From IMG/VR virus record IMGVR_UViG_3300029926_000042, positions 1 to 21,914 of that record: DNA of 21,914 nucleotides; one strand, given 5' to 3'. Positions 4,158 through 21,914 of the stretch are shown piece after piece (positions within the stretch are counted from its first letter, which is position 1; every line of letters starts with the position of its first letter). The notes below the pieces were generated by a model. It saw only the letters and a program-made list of their open reading frames with translations. It made no database searches and was not told the DNA's origin. Position numbers and translations under genes: made by a program. Source of the DNA: a virus.

Positions 4158-6245
4158 ATGCCGAAAAGAAAGAACAAAAACAGAACAAAAATGAAAAGCG
4201 ATTGGTACGCAATGAATCGTGTGTCAAACGAGTCAGCGCTAATAAGAATTTACGGTGTTATTCACCCCTGGGTAATAGGAGCTGACCAGTTTGCCCAGGA
4301 CCTTGATGGCTTGGGCAATATTGACGATCTTACGGTTGCTATTAACAGCCCAGGCGGAAGCGTCACTGAGGGCATCGCAATTTACAACTTGCTGGTTTCC
4401 CACTCAGCAAACGTCACAACAAGAATTGACGCTGCAGCTTATTCAATTGCCAGTGTCATTGCCATGGCGGGTGACAGCATTCAAATGTGTGAAAATGCTC
4501 TGCTCATGATTCACGACCCATGGACTTTCACGGAAGGAAATGCCGACGAACTACGCAAAGATGCTGAAATCTTAGACATACACAAAGACGCTATCGTAAG
4601 AACTTATGCAACACAAACTGATTTAAGCGATAGCGATATAAGCGATCTCATGAGCGATGAAACTTGGTTCACTGCTGAGTCAGCACTCGCAAACGGATTC
4701 ATCGACCGAATCATCACTCGTTCCACAGAAGATGATGACGATGAAAGCACCGCCGGCAATTCAAGTCGGTTTGATGTCAACACGTTCGGGTTCAAAAACG
4801 TTCCTGAAAATTTAGCAAAATCAATCACTGGAGTTACCAACATGCCATCACAAACAAAAGTAAAACAGGAGCTAGTCAAAGACTCAACTTCAGTTGATAA
4901 TTCTGACGCTTCTGACTCAGAAAACACACCTTCCGATCCGGCTAACGCGTCAGACATTAGTGCGAAATTGATTAGTGACGAACAAGCACGCAAGCACGAA
5001 ATAAAGGACGGAGTGTTTGCTCACTTTCAAGAACATGCGGATTTAATGGTTGAATGTTTAATGGATGAAAAATGCACGCCAGCTATGGCCAGCAAGCTTC
5101 TGTTAAACAAGCTGGGCCAGAATTCTACGCCTGCCCAAAATTCACCCGTTATTCATTCAATCGCTGATGCCCGTGACAAGAAAATTGAAGGCATGACTAA
5201 GGCGCTATTGATTCGCTCAGGTGCCGAAAAGAATGATATGGCGAACGAATTCCGCACTATGACAACATTCGAGATTGTGCGTGAATGTTTAGATATGGCA
5301 AAAATAAATTATTCGCGAATGGATAGATCGCAAATGATCCAGTCTGCGTTTACACATAGCACATCGGATTTCCCCGGCTTATTTGAGAACACCCTAGGCA
5401 AGATCCTGCAAACAGCATACGACGGGGAACCATCTACGTGGCGCCCTTGGGTTGACGTGACTCGAGTGAACGACTTTAAACCTAATAGCCGGGTACGTAT
5501 GGGGTCATTCAACTTGCTCAAGACCGTACCGGAAGGCGGGGATTTTGAGAGTGGTTCGTTCGGCGAAGAACGAGAAACAATCCAAGCTGAAACGCAAGGA
5601 CGTTTGATTACAATCACTCGTCAAATGATCATCAACGACGATCTTGACGCTATCAGCCGCTTGCCCCGAATGATGGGCAGCGCTGCTAGCCGCTCTATTT
5701 CGAGAGATGTTTACCGTACGTTAAATGATAATGCTTTAACCAGCGATGGCTCAGCATTGTTTTCTACTGCTCACGGCAATCTTGGCGACCCTGCTGGACC
5801 AATCACCATTGCTTTGCTTGATTTGGGTCGCCAAGCTATGGTTAAGCAGGTCGGCCCAACAGCAGCAAACGGCGAAGAAAATGATGATTACGTCGGCGCC
5901 CGTCCAGCTTACTTATTAGTCGGCATTGGTCAAGAAATCGCGGCACGGGAATTGATACAGTCTGCAACTTACGCAAACGGTGGCCGTAATAACCGCGAGA
6001 TTAACCCTCTACAAAACTTCGTGGAAATAATCTCTGATGTTCGTATCCCTGGAAATAAATGGTACTTAGTTGCTAATCCTAATCAGATCCCATTGATGGA
6101 GGTCGCTTTTCTTGACGGCAATGAGACTCCTTTCATCGATTCCATGGAAGGTTTCAAGTCAGACGGCATTTCTTACAAAGTGCGCTTAGATTATGGCGTG
6201 GGTGCTAACGATTTCCGTGGCGGTTTCTGCAACCTTGGCGCTTAA
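4158..6245 (+). CDS. ClpP-like prohead protease fused to major capsid protein
   Basis: One 695-residue frame holds two normally separate head proteins. Residues about 25-190 are a ClpP-like serine protease: INSPGGSVTEGIAIYN (62-77), the nucleophile in AAAYSIASVIAMAGD (Ser96) and the histidine in MIHDPW (His119). An acidic, Ser/Thr-rich linker follows (about 195-280), which would suit an internal scaffold. From about residue 390 to the end is a capsid-type region: PGLFENTLGKILQTAYDG, EETIQ-type and GRLITITRQMIINDDLDAI segments typical of Mu-type/HK97-fold capsid proteins. The protease presumably releases the capsid part during maturation. A second in-frame start at 4842 may give a protease-free product. 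The start at 4158 has a weak ribosome binding site; ATG 4191 is an alternative and keeps the whole protease domain. Confidence 0.92.
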   Translation: MPKRKNKNRTKMKSDWYAMNRVSNESALIRIYGVIHPWVIGADQFAQDLDGLGNIDDLTVAINSPGGSVTEGIAIYNLLVSHSANVTTRIDAAAYSIASVIAMAGDSIQMCENALLMIHDPWTFTEGNADELRKDAEILDIHKDAIVRTYATQTDLSDSDISDLMSDETWFTAESALANGFIDRIITRSTEDDDDESTAGNSSRFDVNTFGFKNVPENLAKSITGVTNMPSQTKVKQELVKDSTSVDNSDASDSENTPSDPANASDISAKLISDEQARKHEIKDGVFAHFQEHADLMVECLMDEKCTPAMASKLLLNKLGQNSTPAQNSPVIHSIADARDKKIEGMTKALLIRSGAEKNDMANEFRTMTTFEIVRECLDMAKINYSRMDRSQMIQSAFTHSTSDFPGLFENTLGKILQTAYDGEPSTWRPWVDVTRVNDFKPNSRVRMGSFNLLKTVPEGGDFESGSFGEERETIQAETQGRLITITRQMIINDDLDAISRLPRMMGSAASRSISRDVYRTLNDNALTSDGSALFSTAHGNLGDPAGPITIALLDLGRQAMVKQVGPTAANGEENDDYVGARPAYLLVGIGQEIAARELIQSATYANGGRNNREINPLQNFVEIISDVRIPGNKWYLVANPNQIPLMEVAFLDGNETPFIDSMEGFKSDGISYKVRLDYGVGANDFRGGFCNLGA
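4830..4844 (+). promoter_or_regulatory. internal ribosome binding site and ATG in the protease-capsid gene
   Basis: GGAG at 4830-4833, 8 bases before the in-frame ATG at 4842. It lies exactly at the junction between the protease domain and the acidic linker, where a nested scaffold or capsid start would be expected. Confidence 0.5.
4842..6245 (+). CDS. possible nested scaffold-capsid product of the fusion gene
   Basis: An in-frame ATG at 4842 (residue 229 of the fusion) is preceded by GGAG at 4830-4833 with 8 bases between, a better ribosome binding site than the one before the full-length start. The predicted 467-residue product lacks the protease and begins with the acidic linker followed by the whole capsid domain. 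Lambda is known to make its scaffold Nu3 from an in-frame start inside the protease gene C. By analogy this start could supply excess scaffold-capsid protein over protease-capsid protein, which capsid assembly would need. This is inference from start-site context; no product is demonstrated. Confidence 0.5.
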   Translation: MPSQTKVKQELVKDSTSVDNSDASDSENTPSDPANASDISAKLISDEQARKHEIKDGVFAHFQEHADLMVECLMDEKCTPAMASKLLLNKLGQNSTPAQNSPVIHSIADARDKKIEGMTKALLIRSGAEKNDMANEFRTMTTFEIVRECLDMAKINYSRMDRSQMIQSAFTHSTSDFPGLFENTLGKILQTAYDGEPSTWRPWVDVTRVNDFKPNSRVRMGSFNLLKTVPEGGDFESGSFGEERETIQAETQGRLITITRQMIINDDLDAISRLPRMMGSAASRSISRDVYRTLNDNALTSDGSALFSTAHGNLGDPAGPITIALLDLGRQAMVKQVGPTAANGEENDDYVGARPAYLLVGIGQEIAARELIQSATYANGGRNNREINPLQNFVEIISDVRIPGNKWYLVANPNQIPLMEVAFLDGNETPFIDSMEGFKSDGISYKVRLDYGVGANDFRGGFCNLGA

Positions 6246-6288
6246 TCTTGCTGCTAAAAACAGCTAAACAAATATTGAGGAAAAGATA

Positions 6289-6648
6289 ATGGCTACAAAT
6301 TATATTAAAGATGGCAGCAACATCAGCTATACCAACCAAGGCGCGGCTATTGCCTCTGGTAGTGTAGTTGTGATCGGTTCGCTTGTGGCTGTGGCATTAA
6401 CTGACATCGACAATGGTCAAACTGGTGCAGTAGCGCTTGAAGGCATCTTTTCTCTGCCTAAAGTGCCTGCGGATACTTTTGCCCAAGGTGATCAAGTATT
6501 TTACGACGTAAGCGTCAGCCAATTCAGTAATTTAACCCCTGCGGCCGGCGATATTCTCAACGCCGGTGTAGCTGTTGCATCAGCTGAGGGATCAACACAG
6601 TTTGCGGAAATCAAACTGAATGGTAACGGCGGCAGCATCTCCGTCTAA
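6289..6648 (+). CDS. DUF2190-like capsid decoration protein
   Basis: A 119-residue, beta-rich protein directly after the capsid gene, where lambda carries the decoration protein D. The sequence has the pattern of DUF2190 proteins, including an early ASGSVVVIGSLVAVA strand, the EGIFSLPKV segment and AAGDILNAGVAVASA near the end. Such proteins bind the outside of the expanded capsid and stabilise it. A strong ribosome binding site (GAGGAAA, about 8 bases before the ATG) suggests high expression, as expected for a protein present in hundreds of copies per virion. Family membership is judged from pattern and position. Confidence 0.85.
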   Translation: MATNYIKDGSNISYTNQGAAIASGSVVVIGSLVAVALTDIDNGQTGAVALEGIFSLPKVPADTFAQGDQVFYDVSVSQFSNLTPAAGDILNAGVAVASAEGSTQFAEIKLNGNGGSISV

Positions 6649-6977
6649 TGCCAAACCGTGAAGACATTGTCGACGACATTGATGCGATGCTTGAAGATTG
6701 GGATGAAGCTACAGCGCACCCAGGTGCAGTGTGGCCACACCTTAGCGATAGACCGACCAACATATTCGGCAGATTGTTTAAGCCATCAAATCAACGCTCG
6801 TTCGGCGATGTCTCACTTAATACTAATGACTACACTTTTTTAACTTCTCAGCGTTTTGCAAATGGGTTGATACGAGATTCTGTTTTGATCGTTGACCAAA
6901 TATGTTATCAAGTAGTCGCTGTTAAGCCTGGTGGCGTACAAATTGTAATTGTGGTACTGAAAAATCATGCCAGGTGA
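6648..6977 (+). CDS. head-tail connector protein, gpFII-like candidate
   Basis: A 109-residue protein whose ATG overlaps the stop of the decoration gene by one base. Position between the decoration protein and the gpZ-like gene matches lambda FII, the connector that joins the filled head to the tail. The C-terminal half alternates hydrophobic residues (RDSVLIVDQICYQVVAV, VQIVIVVLKN), indicating a small beta barrel, and it is preceded by the ordered-looking NDYTFLTSQ. Lambda gpFII is 117 residues and mainly beta. The N-terminal acidic helix (residues 1-22) also fits. Identification is by position, size and fold pattern rather than by an unmistakable motif. Confidence 0.65.
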   Translation: MPNREDIVDDIDAMLEDWDEATAHPGAVWPHLSDRPTNIFGRLFKPSNQRSFGDVSLNTNDYTFLTSQRFANGLIRDSVLIVDQICYQVVAVKPGGVQIVIVVLKNHAR

Positions 6978-19386: not shown

Positions 19387-19492
19387 ACTCATCGATGCCG
19401 GCACACTTGACGTTGATGATGTGCTAACAGTTGTTAGTGTGCTTGATTTCATTATACAAACAGCGATGCCGCTGGCAGAGCGGCAGCGATGA
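19376..19492 (+). CDS. 38-residue overlapping protein of unknown function
   Basis: An ATG at 19376 with GGAG 7-10 bases upstream opens a 38-codon frame that ends in TGA at 19490-19492. It overlaps the lysin stop by 11 bases and the hydrolase ATG by 4 (ATGA), a typical sign of translational coupling. The peptide has an acidic start (LIDAGTLDVDD) and a hydrophobic middle (VLTVVSVLDFIIQTAMPL) that may be membrane-associated, although one Asp interrupts it. I do not recognise it. Its coupling and ribosome binding site make it a likely real gene; a small lysis helper is one possibility. Confidence 0.55.
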   Translation: MHNKLIDAGTLDVDDVLTVVSVLDFIIQTAMPLAERQR

Positions 19493-20106
19493 CCGTCTAT
19501 TTGCTGCACGGCTTTAACGTGCGCAAGCCCGAGAATACTGTCGGCAATTGCGCGCCAGCGATTTATGAGATGGGCCACACGCCGCAGATTATCAATTATG
19601 GCCATGTTGGCTTGATTAATCTACGTCCGATCAACGAAACCGTTGCTCGATTGCTTGGCTCAATAATCAAGCCTGGCGATGCCCTAATTACACACAGCAA
19701 CGGTGCTGCTATTGCTTATCAAGCTGCGCGCGAGTTTGGCTTGCAAGGCTTGAGCGCTTTAATGATGCTCAATCCTGCGCTTGACCAAAGCATTGTTTTC
19801 CCGCGCGATACAGCGAGCCGTATCGTCGTTGCTTACAATCCTACCGACACACCTGCGTTAGCTAGCAAGCTGTGGCGCTGGGGCGCTTATCTCTCGCCGC
19901 TGCGGCTTAAGTATGGACGACATCTTTGGGGTGCGGCGGGGCGGTTTGGTTTTGACAAACAATCGCGTTACGATGCACACATCAATATGTGCGTTGGGCC
20001 GCACGCGGTTAAAGGTCACGGAGGACAATTTAAAACACGCGAGCTAGCAAGCTATTGGACGCATAGACTGATGGCGGCTGCCGAGCTGCCGCGCATAGAA
20101 GGCTGA
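19489..20106 (+). CDS. alpha/beta hydrolase-fold protein
   Basis: A 205-residue protein with the plan of an alpha/beta hydrolase. LLHGFN at 5-10 carries the usual oxyanion-side HG motif after the first strand. THSNGAAIAY at about 68-77 is the nucleophile elbow, with Ser70 in the form H-S-N-G rather than the common G-x-S-x-G. ALMMLNPAL follows as the next strand, and VVAYNPTDTPA (Asp120) could give the acid. His177 in KGHGG near the end is the likely catalytic base. There is no signal peptide. It lies between lysin and holin-like genes, so an esterase role on lipids or cell-wall components at lysis is possible, but the substrate is unknown. Confidence 0.7.
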   Translation: MTVYLLHGFNVRKPENTVGNCAPAIYEMGHTPQIINYGHVGLINLRPINETVARLLGSIIKPGDALITHSNGAAIAYQAAREFGLQGLSALMMLNPALDQSIVFPRDTASRIVVAYNPTDTPALASKLWRWGAYLSPLRLKYGRHLWGAAGRFGFDKQSRYDAHINMCVGPHAVKGHGGQFKTRELASYWTHRLMAAAELPRIEG

Positions 20107-20524: not shown

Positions 20525-20794
20525 ATGCAGCTCAGCAAAGACGACATAAAAAACGCCATCAACGAAGTGCTGACCGAGCGCGATAGAATAGATGCAATAA
20601 GCCATGCCGACCATCATCAGTTTATCGCTATTTTAATGAGCGAAAGAAAGCTGGCGATTGAGCGTAACGAAGCAATAAAAAAGAAAGTTTACGGTTGGGG
20701 CATAATCAGTGCTATTGGTGGTTTTCTGGGTTTGCTGGGTACGCTAGCTTGGCACGCCGCAGAAAATTATTTCAAGGCTGTGTCTGGCGGCTAG
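20525..20794 (+). CDS. holin-like small membrane protein
   Basis: An 89-residue protein with a charged, probably helical N-terminal part (about 1-52, many Asp, Glu, Lys and Arg) and one C-terminal hydrophobic segment GIISAIGGFLGLLGTLAWHA at about residues 59-78. Small phage proteins with this plan are often found in lysis cassettes and are annotated as holins or holin partners. Only one membrane segment is visible, so pore formation is uncertain. It starts 6 bases after the exported protein. Its last 23 bases overlap the end of the helix-turn-helix gene on the opposite strand. Confidence 0.6.
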   Translation: MQLSKDDIKNAINEVLTERDRIDAISHADHHQFIAILMSERKLAIERNEAIKKKVYGWGIISAIGGFLGLLGTLAWHAAENYFKAVSGG

Positions 20795-20969
20795 CTTTTT
20801 CTGCTGTCAGCACTCTGCGCGCGCTATACAGCTTATTATCGACAACAATAAAGTCTTTGTTTAGCCATTGCGTCACTTGCGGCGGCGCAATGTTGTTAGC
20901 GTTAGCAAAGGCACGTTGCATTCCGCTGTAATATTTGTCGATATAATTTTTTAGTGTTATTGCTTGCAT
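20772..20969 (-). CDS. 65-residue helix-turn-helix protein, Aca-like candidate
   Basis: The start is the ATG at 20969-20967, one base after the stop of the AcrVA2-like gene (TAA-C-ATG), so the two are almost certainly cotranscribed and coupled. An in-frame upstream start at 21005 would overlap that gene by 35 bases and adds nothing domain-like. Residues 15-38 (SGMQRAFANANNIAPPQVTQ and on to WLNK) form a Cro/YdaS-type helix-turn-helix. This is followed by DFIVVDNKLYSARRVL, as often seen in small phage Cro-like proteins. In many acr operons a small HTH protein (Aca) encoded after acr represses the promoter; this one has that position. Its operator would lie upstream of the acr gene, beyond the window. 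A Cro-like regulator of another promoter is the alternative. Confidence 0.7.
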   Translation of the reverse strand: MQAITLKNYIDKYYSGMQRAFANANNIAPPQVTQWLNKDFIVVDNKLYSARRVLTAEKASRQTQP

Positions 20970-20970
20970 G

Positions 20971-21914
20971 TTATTGCTCTGTATTGTTGTCTGATGCAAC
21001 CGCAATCGGCGGCAGCCATTTTACAGTTAGTTTTTTATCATCACCCGCTCCCACCCAAAAGCTATGCCAGTGCGCGCGCCGAATGTGAGGTGCTTTTTTA
21101 CCTGATCCGCCGCCGGCGGCGGCGCGTATTCTGTCGCCGGTTTGTTTGCACAAATCCCAGTATCTTGGCTTGGCCGCAGGGAACAATCTCCAGCCTTTTT
21201 TTGTACGCTTCGGCTGTGGAAATGATGGCTTTTGATTGCCGTTATATTCAACGCCGTCACTGCACACATACAGTAGTAGTGATATCAAAGAATAAACCGA
21301 TTCGCTCATTTGCATAACAAGATCGTCTGATTTGTTAAATGCAACTCCCACTTTTTCTGCTTTTTTTACCGTCTCACTTAGTGATCTATCGATAGCTTCT
21401 GTTATTGTCCATGCGCCCAAGTGCAACACAAAAGGTATCAGTTGATCATCAGTATCGAGCAATAAGCGCAGCTCGTGACGCTCTGTATTAACGTCATACT
21501 CTAAGTGCGCAAAAAACCCAGCTAAGTTGTGAGTCATCCAGCGCATTTTTGGCGTCTCAATATAGAGGCACCATTCTGGCATCCGATAAATCACATCAGT
21601 TGGTATAGCGCCGCGCGGCACGGTCTCGATAAGAGATTGATAAACTGTCTCATCAAAGCGGTATATTGATTGCGTATAGCGCCAAGCACCGAGCGCTGCG
21701 AGCTTTGCGACATCAGCAATGTATAGTTGACTGATCTCATTAACTTGCAGCTCAGAGCTAACGACAGCATACCAACCGGACATCGGACAAAAACACCAAT
21801 CCGGCCAATTTGGTATATCTGTGCCCCGGTCTCTGCGCAGCTCATCGAGCTGCGACCAGGCATTAGGATAGTCGTCTTTGATTGAGTGCAAAAAAGTAAG
21901 AGGGCGCGGTATGC
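20971..21914 (-). CDS. AcrVA2-like anti-CRISPR homologue, start outside the window
   Basis: The frame runs leftward and stays open to the edge, with 306 residues from a TTG at 21891 and seven more codons beyond it; the true start is probably outside. The known AcrVA2 has 322 residues. Shared features, recalled from the Moraxella AcrVA2 sequence, are GAWRYTQSIYRFDE (residues 69-81 from the TTG), MPEWCLYIE (104-112), and the C-terminal APHIRRAHWHSFWVGAG followed by VKWLP. AcrVA2 protects phages from type V-A CRISPR by causing loss of cas12a mRNA as Cas12a is made, and homologues occur on many mobile elements. Between domains is a Gly-rich linker (AAAGGGSGKK). It is transcribed against the lysis cluster, with the HTH gene directly behind it. 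Whether it acts on Cas12a is unknown. Confidence 0.75.
   Translation of the reverse strand, partial: IPRPLTFLHSIKDDYPNAWSQLDELRRDRGTDIPNWPDWCFCPMSGWYAVVSSELQVNEISQLYIADVAKLAALGAWRYTQSIYRFDETVYQSLIETVPRGAIPTDVIYRMPEWCLYIETPKMRWMTHNLAGFFAHLEYDVNTERHELRLLLDTDDQLIPFVLHLGAWTITEAIDRSLSETVKKAEKVGVAFNKSDDLVMQMSESVYSLISLLLYVCSDGVEYNGNQKPSFPQPKRTKKGWRLFPAAKPRYWDLCKQTGDRIRAAAGGGSGKKAPHIRRAHWHSFWVGAGDDKKLTVKWLPPIAVASDNNTEQ
21107..21122. repeat. 16-base perfect GC palindrome in the AcrVA2-like gene
   Basis: CCGCCGCC and GGCGGCGG are exact reverse complements with no spacer. The stretch encodes the Ala/Gly linker just before the conserved C-terminal block. Its composition stands out from the AT-richer surroundings and may arise simply from Ala and Gly codons. 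Confidence 0.5.

Follow-up and report, generated by a model that had tools for sequence, protein, structure and literature searches.

The virus record analysed here in full (the window, 21,914 bases) ends in a gene whose product is homologous, by sequence and predicted fold, to the anti-CRISPR protein AcrVA2. The gene is one of many relatives in a known, under-appreciated family of phages and plasmids, which spans several phyla and of which AcrVA2 is one small tip. FinQ, a plasmid protein, belongs to the same family. On balance we lean toward a reading in which the family comprises target-specific mRNA silencers that are carried by mobile elements and act co-translationally, and in which the copy in the window, a gene beside an integrase, probably has a target other than Cas12a.

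The gene and its place in the phage

As the initial annotation proposed, there is an open frame at 20971-21914, and this minus-strand region is a genuine gene rather than a chance frame. Within the window the frame (20971-21912) is open for 313 codons and is truncated by the contig edge, past which it runs. It is full in L002 (IMG/VR contig 3300029927_000045), a second record of the same phage with 100% identity across 6,941 bases, where the whole gene has 322 codons (322 aa), with an ATG at 5974 and a stop at 6942. Three features of this region are discussed below.

20971-21914, minus strand: AcrVA2/FinQ-family gene, its 5' end lost at the contig edge; complete in L002 at 5974-6942
20772-20969, minus strand: putative Cro/YdaS-like helix-turn-helix protein, 65 aa (phrog_10103, E=5.7e-18; phrog_35, E=7.6e-4)
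21900-21914, minus strand: candidate GC-rich terminator-like hairpin, a match to the consensus only; whole in L002 at 5993-6013, reaching 21920 in window numbering

L002 has, in order, genes for a tyrosine integrase (PF00589) and for a 96-aa protein, followed by the silencer-like gene and the putative helix-turn-helix gene. The silencer-like gene overlaps the 96-aa frame by 8 nt (ATGACTAA), and the ATG of the 65-aa gene lies 1 nt past its stop (an alternative TTG at 21005 would overlap). It is therefore the middle of three tightly packed genes, beside the integrase, in a temperate phage. The two PHROGs matched by the 65-aa protein are annotated as unknown function (phrog_10103) and transcriptional repressor (phrog_35), and its match to Pfam YdaS (E=0.013) is under the cut-off. 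At the limits applied, searches of PHROGs, NCBIfam, Pfam and PADLOC found no match for the 96-aa neighbour.

An acr-aca operon as a feature of the family was considered and rejected, as phmmer (E<=0.01) finds no counterpart of either the helix-turn-helix protein or the 96-aa neighbour in the other loci compared. A short same-strand ORF lies at most 60 bp downstream in 43 of 140 loci, the frames having been selected on length rather than with gene-calling software. Of the 42 such ORFs scanned, a minority match helix-turn-helix families (HTH_31 in five, HTH_3 in four). No common partner was seen by eye among the neighbours in the plasmid and phage records inspected. Because the neighbouring genes are without a match in other loci, the operon says little about function.

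An integrase occurs in the same viral record as a family member in 22 of 50 cases, these records being possibly fragments. Among phage relatives, the family gene adjoins the integrase in Pasteurella CFP3 and lies between the endolysin and attP in Lactobacillus JCL1032. The opposite strand of the window phage carries a lysozyme-like gene (Pfam Phage_lysozyme2, under cut-off) and large late-region frames, and its description as a lambda-type phage is borne out by a lambda-family portal and by terminase relatives.

Other genes of this phage are worth recording. A CsrA homologue, a post-transcriptional regulator unexpected for a lambda-type phage, is encoded at L002:2947-3132 (PF02599, E=7e-26). 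On the plus strand of the window, a 695-aa frame at 4158-6245 is a ClpP-type protease fused to a major capsid protein (PF00574, PF25209), and a 205-aa protein at 19489-20106 is hydrolase-like by eye, with a best family match of E=0.07. Phage L102 has what looks by eye like a relative of the latter, placed on the same side of its silencer-like gene.

The window protein starts with MTNHPNRGRIPRPL (MTNHPNR), encoded at L002:5974-6015, which corresponds to window 21898-21939 and so falls mostly outside the window. Similar starts are found in L102, L022, L121 and the second family member of L123. The start M-x-[NST]-HPNR is also found on a family of small Xre-like regulators, one of them located, in L111/L127, where an AcrVA2/FinQ-family gene begins; further unrelated phage proteins share it too (loci including L187-L209 and L210-L314). 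The pattern ATG-x-N-HPNR occurs in 105 viral stretches, versus 11 for permuted codons and 38 with ATC in place of ATG, an enrichment that is real but moderate. Frames of at least 40 codons are open in 94 of 106 HPNR matches (duplicates included), and a second codon version of the leader gave 10 stretches, namely six of one other gene and four short frames. Because synonymous codons vary among HPNR starts, the peptide, and not merely the DNA, is kept. The leader as a tag for a co-encoded silencer finds little favour: a family member is present in two of 50 HPNR records (50 of the 105 having been searched), both of the same phage type. That MxxHPNR is a readable tag for such silencers is not favoured, and we regard it as very improbable. 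A literature search for the letters of the HPNR peptide returned only unrelated uses of the letters among the matches listed.

The hairpin falls within the gene's opening codons, 11 nt past the stop of the 96-aa frame, and is followed by U-rich sequence. The related phage L102 retains its stem, and L022 does not. This candidate hairpin could be an attenuator.

A family that contains AcrVA2 and FinQ

By phmmer against PDB chains, the window protein matches AcrVA2 (E=5.4e-18, residues 60-307 of 313). A profile built from six proteins of the window clade finds AcrVA2 with E=6.8e-34, and no other PDB chain at E<=0.1. The blocks shared with AcrVA2 that were named in the initial annotation are all present on alignment with 7ci1. 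They comprise, in the window protein and AcrVA2 respectively, GAWRYTQSIYRFDE and GAWRNTLGIYQLDE, PEWC and PDWC, the C-terminal PHIRRAHWHSFWVGAG and PHIRRGHWHGYWQGTG, and after that block VKWLPP and VRWQP. The window protein has no Pfam or NCBIfam model above cut-off and no match in a PADLOC scan.

The AlphaFold2 model of the window protein, for which the input alignment comprised 85 family proteins, has a mean pLDDT of 92.5 and a pTM of 0.90. Foldseek against the PDB gave three matches at E<=0.001, all of them AcrVA2 chains (best 3.8e-17), and VIA-align to 7ci2 gave Z 24.4 over 281 residues (rmsd 3.1 A; rows with Z < 4 were treated as uninformative). The initial annotation had asked for a profile search and a structure comparison, counting a missing profile match or an unlike fold against itself; since the profile match is significant and the predicted fold matches AcrVA2 by both Foldseek and VIA, neither occurred, and its proposal of an AcrVA2 homologue is upheld. 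The window protein shares with AcrVA2 (7ci1/7ci2) the predicted full-length fold, the GxWR, PxWC and PHIRRxHWH blocks and a length of 322 aa (that of AcrVA2 is given in PMC9765179). It differs in being 16-20% identical in structural alignments, in belonging to a separate clade, and in that the sampled genomes of its relatives are without Cas12a.

The family is found in phages and plasmids of Pseudomonadota, Bacillota, Planctomycetota, Deinococcota and others. With the window protein as query, tblastn at E<=1e-3 matches 28 records among 50,697 from phages and 210 among 72,556 from plasmids; the best match, at 47% identity, comes from a plasmid of Methylobacter. A scan guided by a profile, run on one genome per species with the pattern H[IL]RR[AG]HWH, found 103 relatives, of which the best 80 were retained, giving 79 loci; a second scan yielded 78 loci from viral contigs. 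Of 178 loci, the window and fetched records among them, 176 contain a frame that the family profile recognises. The window protein (E=2e-61), R621a FinQ, Serratia FinQ and the protein of Moraxella phage Mcat1 all match phrog_6160, making this PHROG the same family, to which PHROGs assigns no function ('unknown function'). An NCBIfam scan of FinQ, Serratia FinQ, Mcat1, L004 and L007 proteins gave nothing above cut-off.

Acinetobacter accounts for 166 of the 210 plasmid records. As there are 291 match places in these 210 records, some plasmids have two members, which suggests paralogous copies on one plasmid. Two divergent members also occur on opposite strands of one viral contig, L123 (5983-6969 and 8099-9049).

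In a tree of 136 rows, made by FastTree only and with long branches, so that the deep order is not trustworthy, the AcrVA2 clade comprises five rows with a support of 100, from Moraxella, Acinetobacter and Shewanella. AcrVA2 is represented there by the Mcat1 protein (E=2.6e-128 to 7ci1). The window protein lies outside this clade, and its neighbours are L022 (a gammaproteobacterial MAG, 53% identity), L102 (54%) and a Reinekea protein. FinQ, which is among the rows with an odd letter make-up, is a separate tip, apart from both. The protein of Shewanella phage vB_SbaS_Y11, named AcrVA2 in print (PMC10846135), is a family member like the window protein; unlike it, this protein lies inside the Moraxella/Acinetobacter AcrVA2 clade. 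PMC7162821 mentions huge-phage proteins that group with AcrVA2.

The C-terminal motif, H-x-R-R-x-H-W-H, reads HIRRAHWH in the window protein (residues 285-292). Of 19 homologues gathered independently of the motif (tblastn matches plus R621a, including two FinQ and two Pasteurella phage proteins), 18 carry the pattern H.[RK][RK].H[WFY][HQR], the sole exception being L020, a protein from an Acinetobacter plasmid. In the larger alignment the conservation of the motif is inflated, because loci there were selected by it, and, with the same bias, the rest of the protein is more variable. Family sequences are highly diverse, with a mean column identity of 23%. A constant C-terminal motif and a variable remainder would fit a single activity with many targets.

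FinQ, reportedly sequenced in 1989 and with a mechanism that is still only loosely described, is characterised as a plasmid protein that silences the F transfer (tra) operon, causing fertility inhibition of F. Its described action is Rho-independent termination of tra transcription at multiple sites. One plasmid match to the window protein in tblastn is annotated 'protein finQ'. The R621a protein, which is the reference FinQ in PMC5696584, was taken as the full 363-aa frame starting at an upstream ATG; the R621a record annotates a shorter frame (45396-46175). The longer frame agrees with the 361 aa given for FinQ in PMC8004404 and with the Serratia FinQ protein.

FinQ and AcrVA2 are homologous on the evidence of a phmmer match of R621a FinQ to AcrVA2 among PDB chains (E=1.8e-16), its match to phrog_6160 (1.7e-47), an independent profile and the predicted fold of an orthologue. 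The profile is that of the six window-clade proteins, built without FinQ and without the AcrVA2 clade, and among 154 proteins it picks out FinQ at 7.5e-40. The orthologue, from Pantoea (L099), is 77% identical to FinQ, and its model (pLDDT 78.4) aligns with 7ci1 by VIA at Z 18.9 over 275 residues, with a best Foldseek value of 2.2e-10. Within the searchable literature, which excludes preprints and most subscription papers, no paper mentions both FinQ and AcrVA2. They are the only two family members for which a described function was found.

The link from FinQ to the window protein is remote. In a single BLASTP comparison R621a FinQ matches the window protein at 3e-18 with 26% identity. FinQ is present at 99% identity or more in 501 of 72,556 plasmid records, nearly all of which were missed by tblastn with the window protein, and this search matched at most one record each from Escherichia and Salmonella. 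With FinQ itself as query, 564 plasmid records match at E<=1e-3, of which 518 are typed conjugative. Being 26% identical to FinQ of IncI1 plasmids and at a separate tree tip, the window protein is not a close FinQ. FinQ of IncI1 plasmids (for example, R621a and R820a) resembles it in family, by phmmer, PHROG, profile and fold, and in residing on a mobile element, and is described as stopping the transcript of its target. It differs in being plasmid-borne, with the F tra operon as target, whereas the window protein is phage-borne.

Cas12a and the target of the window protein

The initial annotation advised checking related hosts for type V-A CRISPR, and the result went against a role for Cas12a. 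The Cas12a model TIGR04330 matches none of 77 family-carrying genomes (50 + 27), which are genomes of relatives and not of the phage's own host, versus nine of 22 genomes of the genus Moraxella (the genus of L092), used as a positive control. The 77 genomes come from the motif scan (best 80 of 103 relatives), many being MAGs, and correspond to its 79 loci minus L096 and L038, the latter from the same organism as L035; one of them, G049, also sits in the Moraxella control. The result is tempered by the fact that a prophage host need not keep CRISPR. Within the genus Moraxella, the family profile matches three of the 22 genomes, one by a short fragment only, and in G082 a single contig carries both Cas12a and a full-length homologue. 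A link to Cas12a is present in the genus Moraxella and is not seen across the wider family as sampled.

The window protein might be a true AcrVA2, reducing Cas12a in a phage host that has a type V-A system, as its homology and fold match and the pairing in G082 would allow. This is quite unlikely, however, as the AcrVA2 clade is a separate tip, with a support of 100, that does not include the window protein, Cas12a was absent from all 77 carrier genomes of the motif scan while the positive control worked, and the described target of FinQ, a co-member of the family, is the transfer operon. The label 'AcrVA2-like anti-CRISPR' holds as to homology and is, for the same three reasons, unsupported as to anti-CRISPR. 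The more cautious wording of the initial annotation, that the target may be Cas12a or another nascent host protein, fares better. The target of the window protein is probably not Cas12a.

Possible modes of action and their implications

According to a 2026 review (PMC13131331), AcrVA2 recognises the nascent LSKT peptide of Cas12a, leading to mRNA loss, and the effect follows the amino acids of the nascent chain and not the nucleotide sequence, codons or promoter. AcrVA2 is also described as binding an internal Cas12a peptide (618-634), whose relation to decay is given as unsettled, and in crystals (7ci2) it is bound to a peptide from mature Cas12a. According to a 2025 meeting report (PMC12908700), the same group is able to redirect AcrVA2 to tagged nucleases. 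AcrVA2 and FinQ are thus each described as removing a specific transcript, and we infer that mRNA loss by the one and termination by the other may be one mechanism.

Family members would, in the reading that we favour, silence chosen genes at the mRNA level while these are translated. The variable face of the protein would read a target peptide emerging from the ribosome, and the conserved C-terminal part (H-x-R-R-x-H-W-H) would bring about the loss of the message through contact with the ribosome, RNA or a host nuclease. A prophage could express such a silencer from its integrase-side locus against a gene of the host or of a rival element. Against a common silencer stand the description of FinQ as provoking transcription termination and not mRNA decay, the remoteness of its link to the window protein, and the lack of LSKT in F transfer proteins. 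LSKT is at residue 12 in three Cas12a proteins of the genus Moraxella. LSKT as the peptide read by FinQ is not supported: the 33 F Tra/Trb proteins contain no copy of it (mean after shuffling, 0.15), so FinQ, if it is a nascent-peptide reader, must use another peptide.

Alternately, the family might consist of transcription-termination factors, the mRNA loss caused by AcrVA2 being premature termination coupled to translation. The account of FinQ as a Rho-independent terminator of tra transcription at multiple sites suits this idea. The reported dependence of AcrVA2 on nascent amino acids, and not on nucleotides or promoter (PMC13131331), makes it unlikely; the structural comparisons by Foldseek and VIA, in which AcrVA2 alone stands out for the window model, leave some room for it. 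We give a similarly low standing to the view that the window protein is phage cargo which binds a completed protein of host or phage and blocks it, sharing just the fold with AcrVA2. The binding of AcrVA2 to a mature Cas12a peptide in 7ci2 indicates that the fold is a peptide binder, and the great diversity of family sequences would suit such cargo, but the polar C-terminal motif in 18 of the 19 homologues suggests a common activity beyond target binding. The co-translational silencer reading could be taken further: FinQ and AcrVA2 would be the same machine, and the whole family protein-guided mRNA silencers that read nascent peptides, with target peptides specific to each lineage, used between mobile elements or against hosts. 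This extension is held tentatively, as possible but somewhat doubtful.

A phage that carries a relative of both a CRISPR-nuclease silencer and a plasmid-transfer silencer suggests one widespread family of silencers on mobile DNA. The relationship between AcrVA2 and FinQ gives a testable mechanism for a fertility-inhibition factor found on hundreds of plasmids. Many AcrVA2 homologues may be silencers with other targets and not anti-CRISPRs, so that 'AcrVA2' labels assigned automatically in phage genomes should be read with care. If AcrVA2 and FinQ do share a mechanism, the family would be a source of silencers that are guided by peptide and not by RNA.
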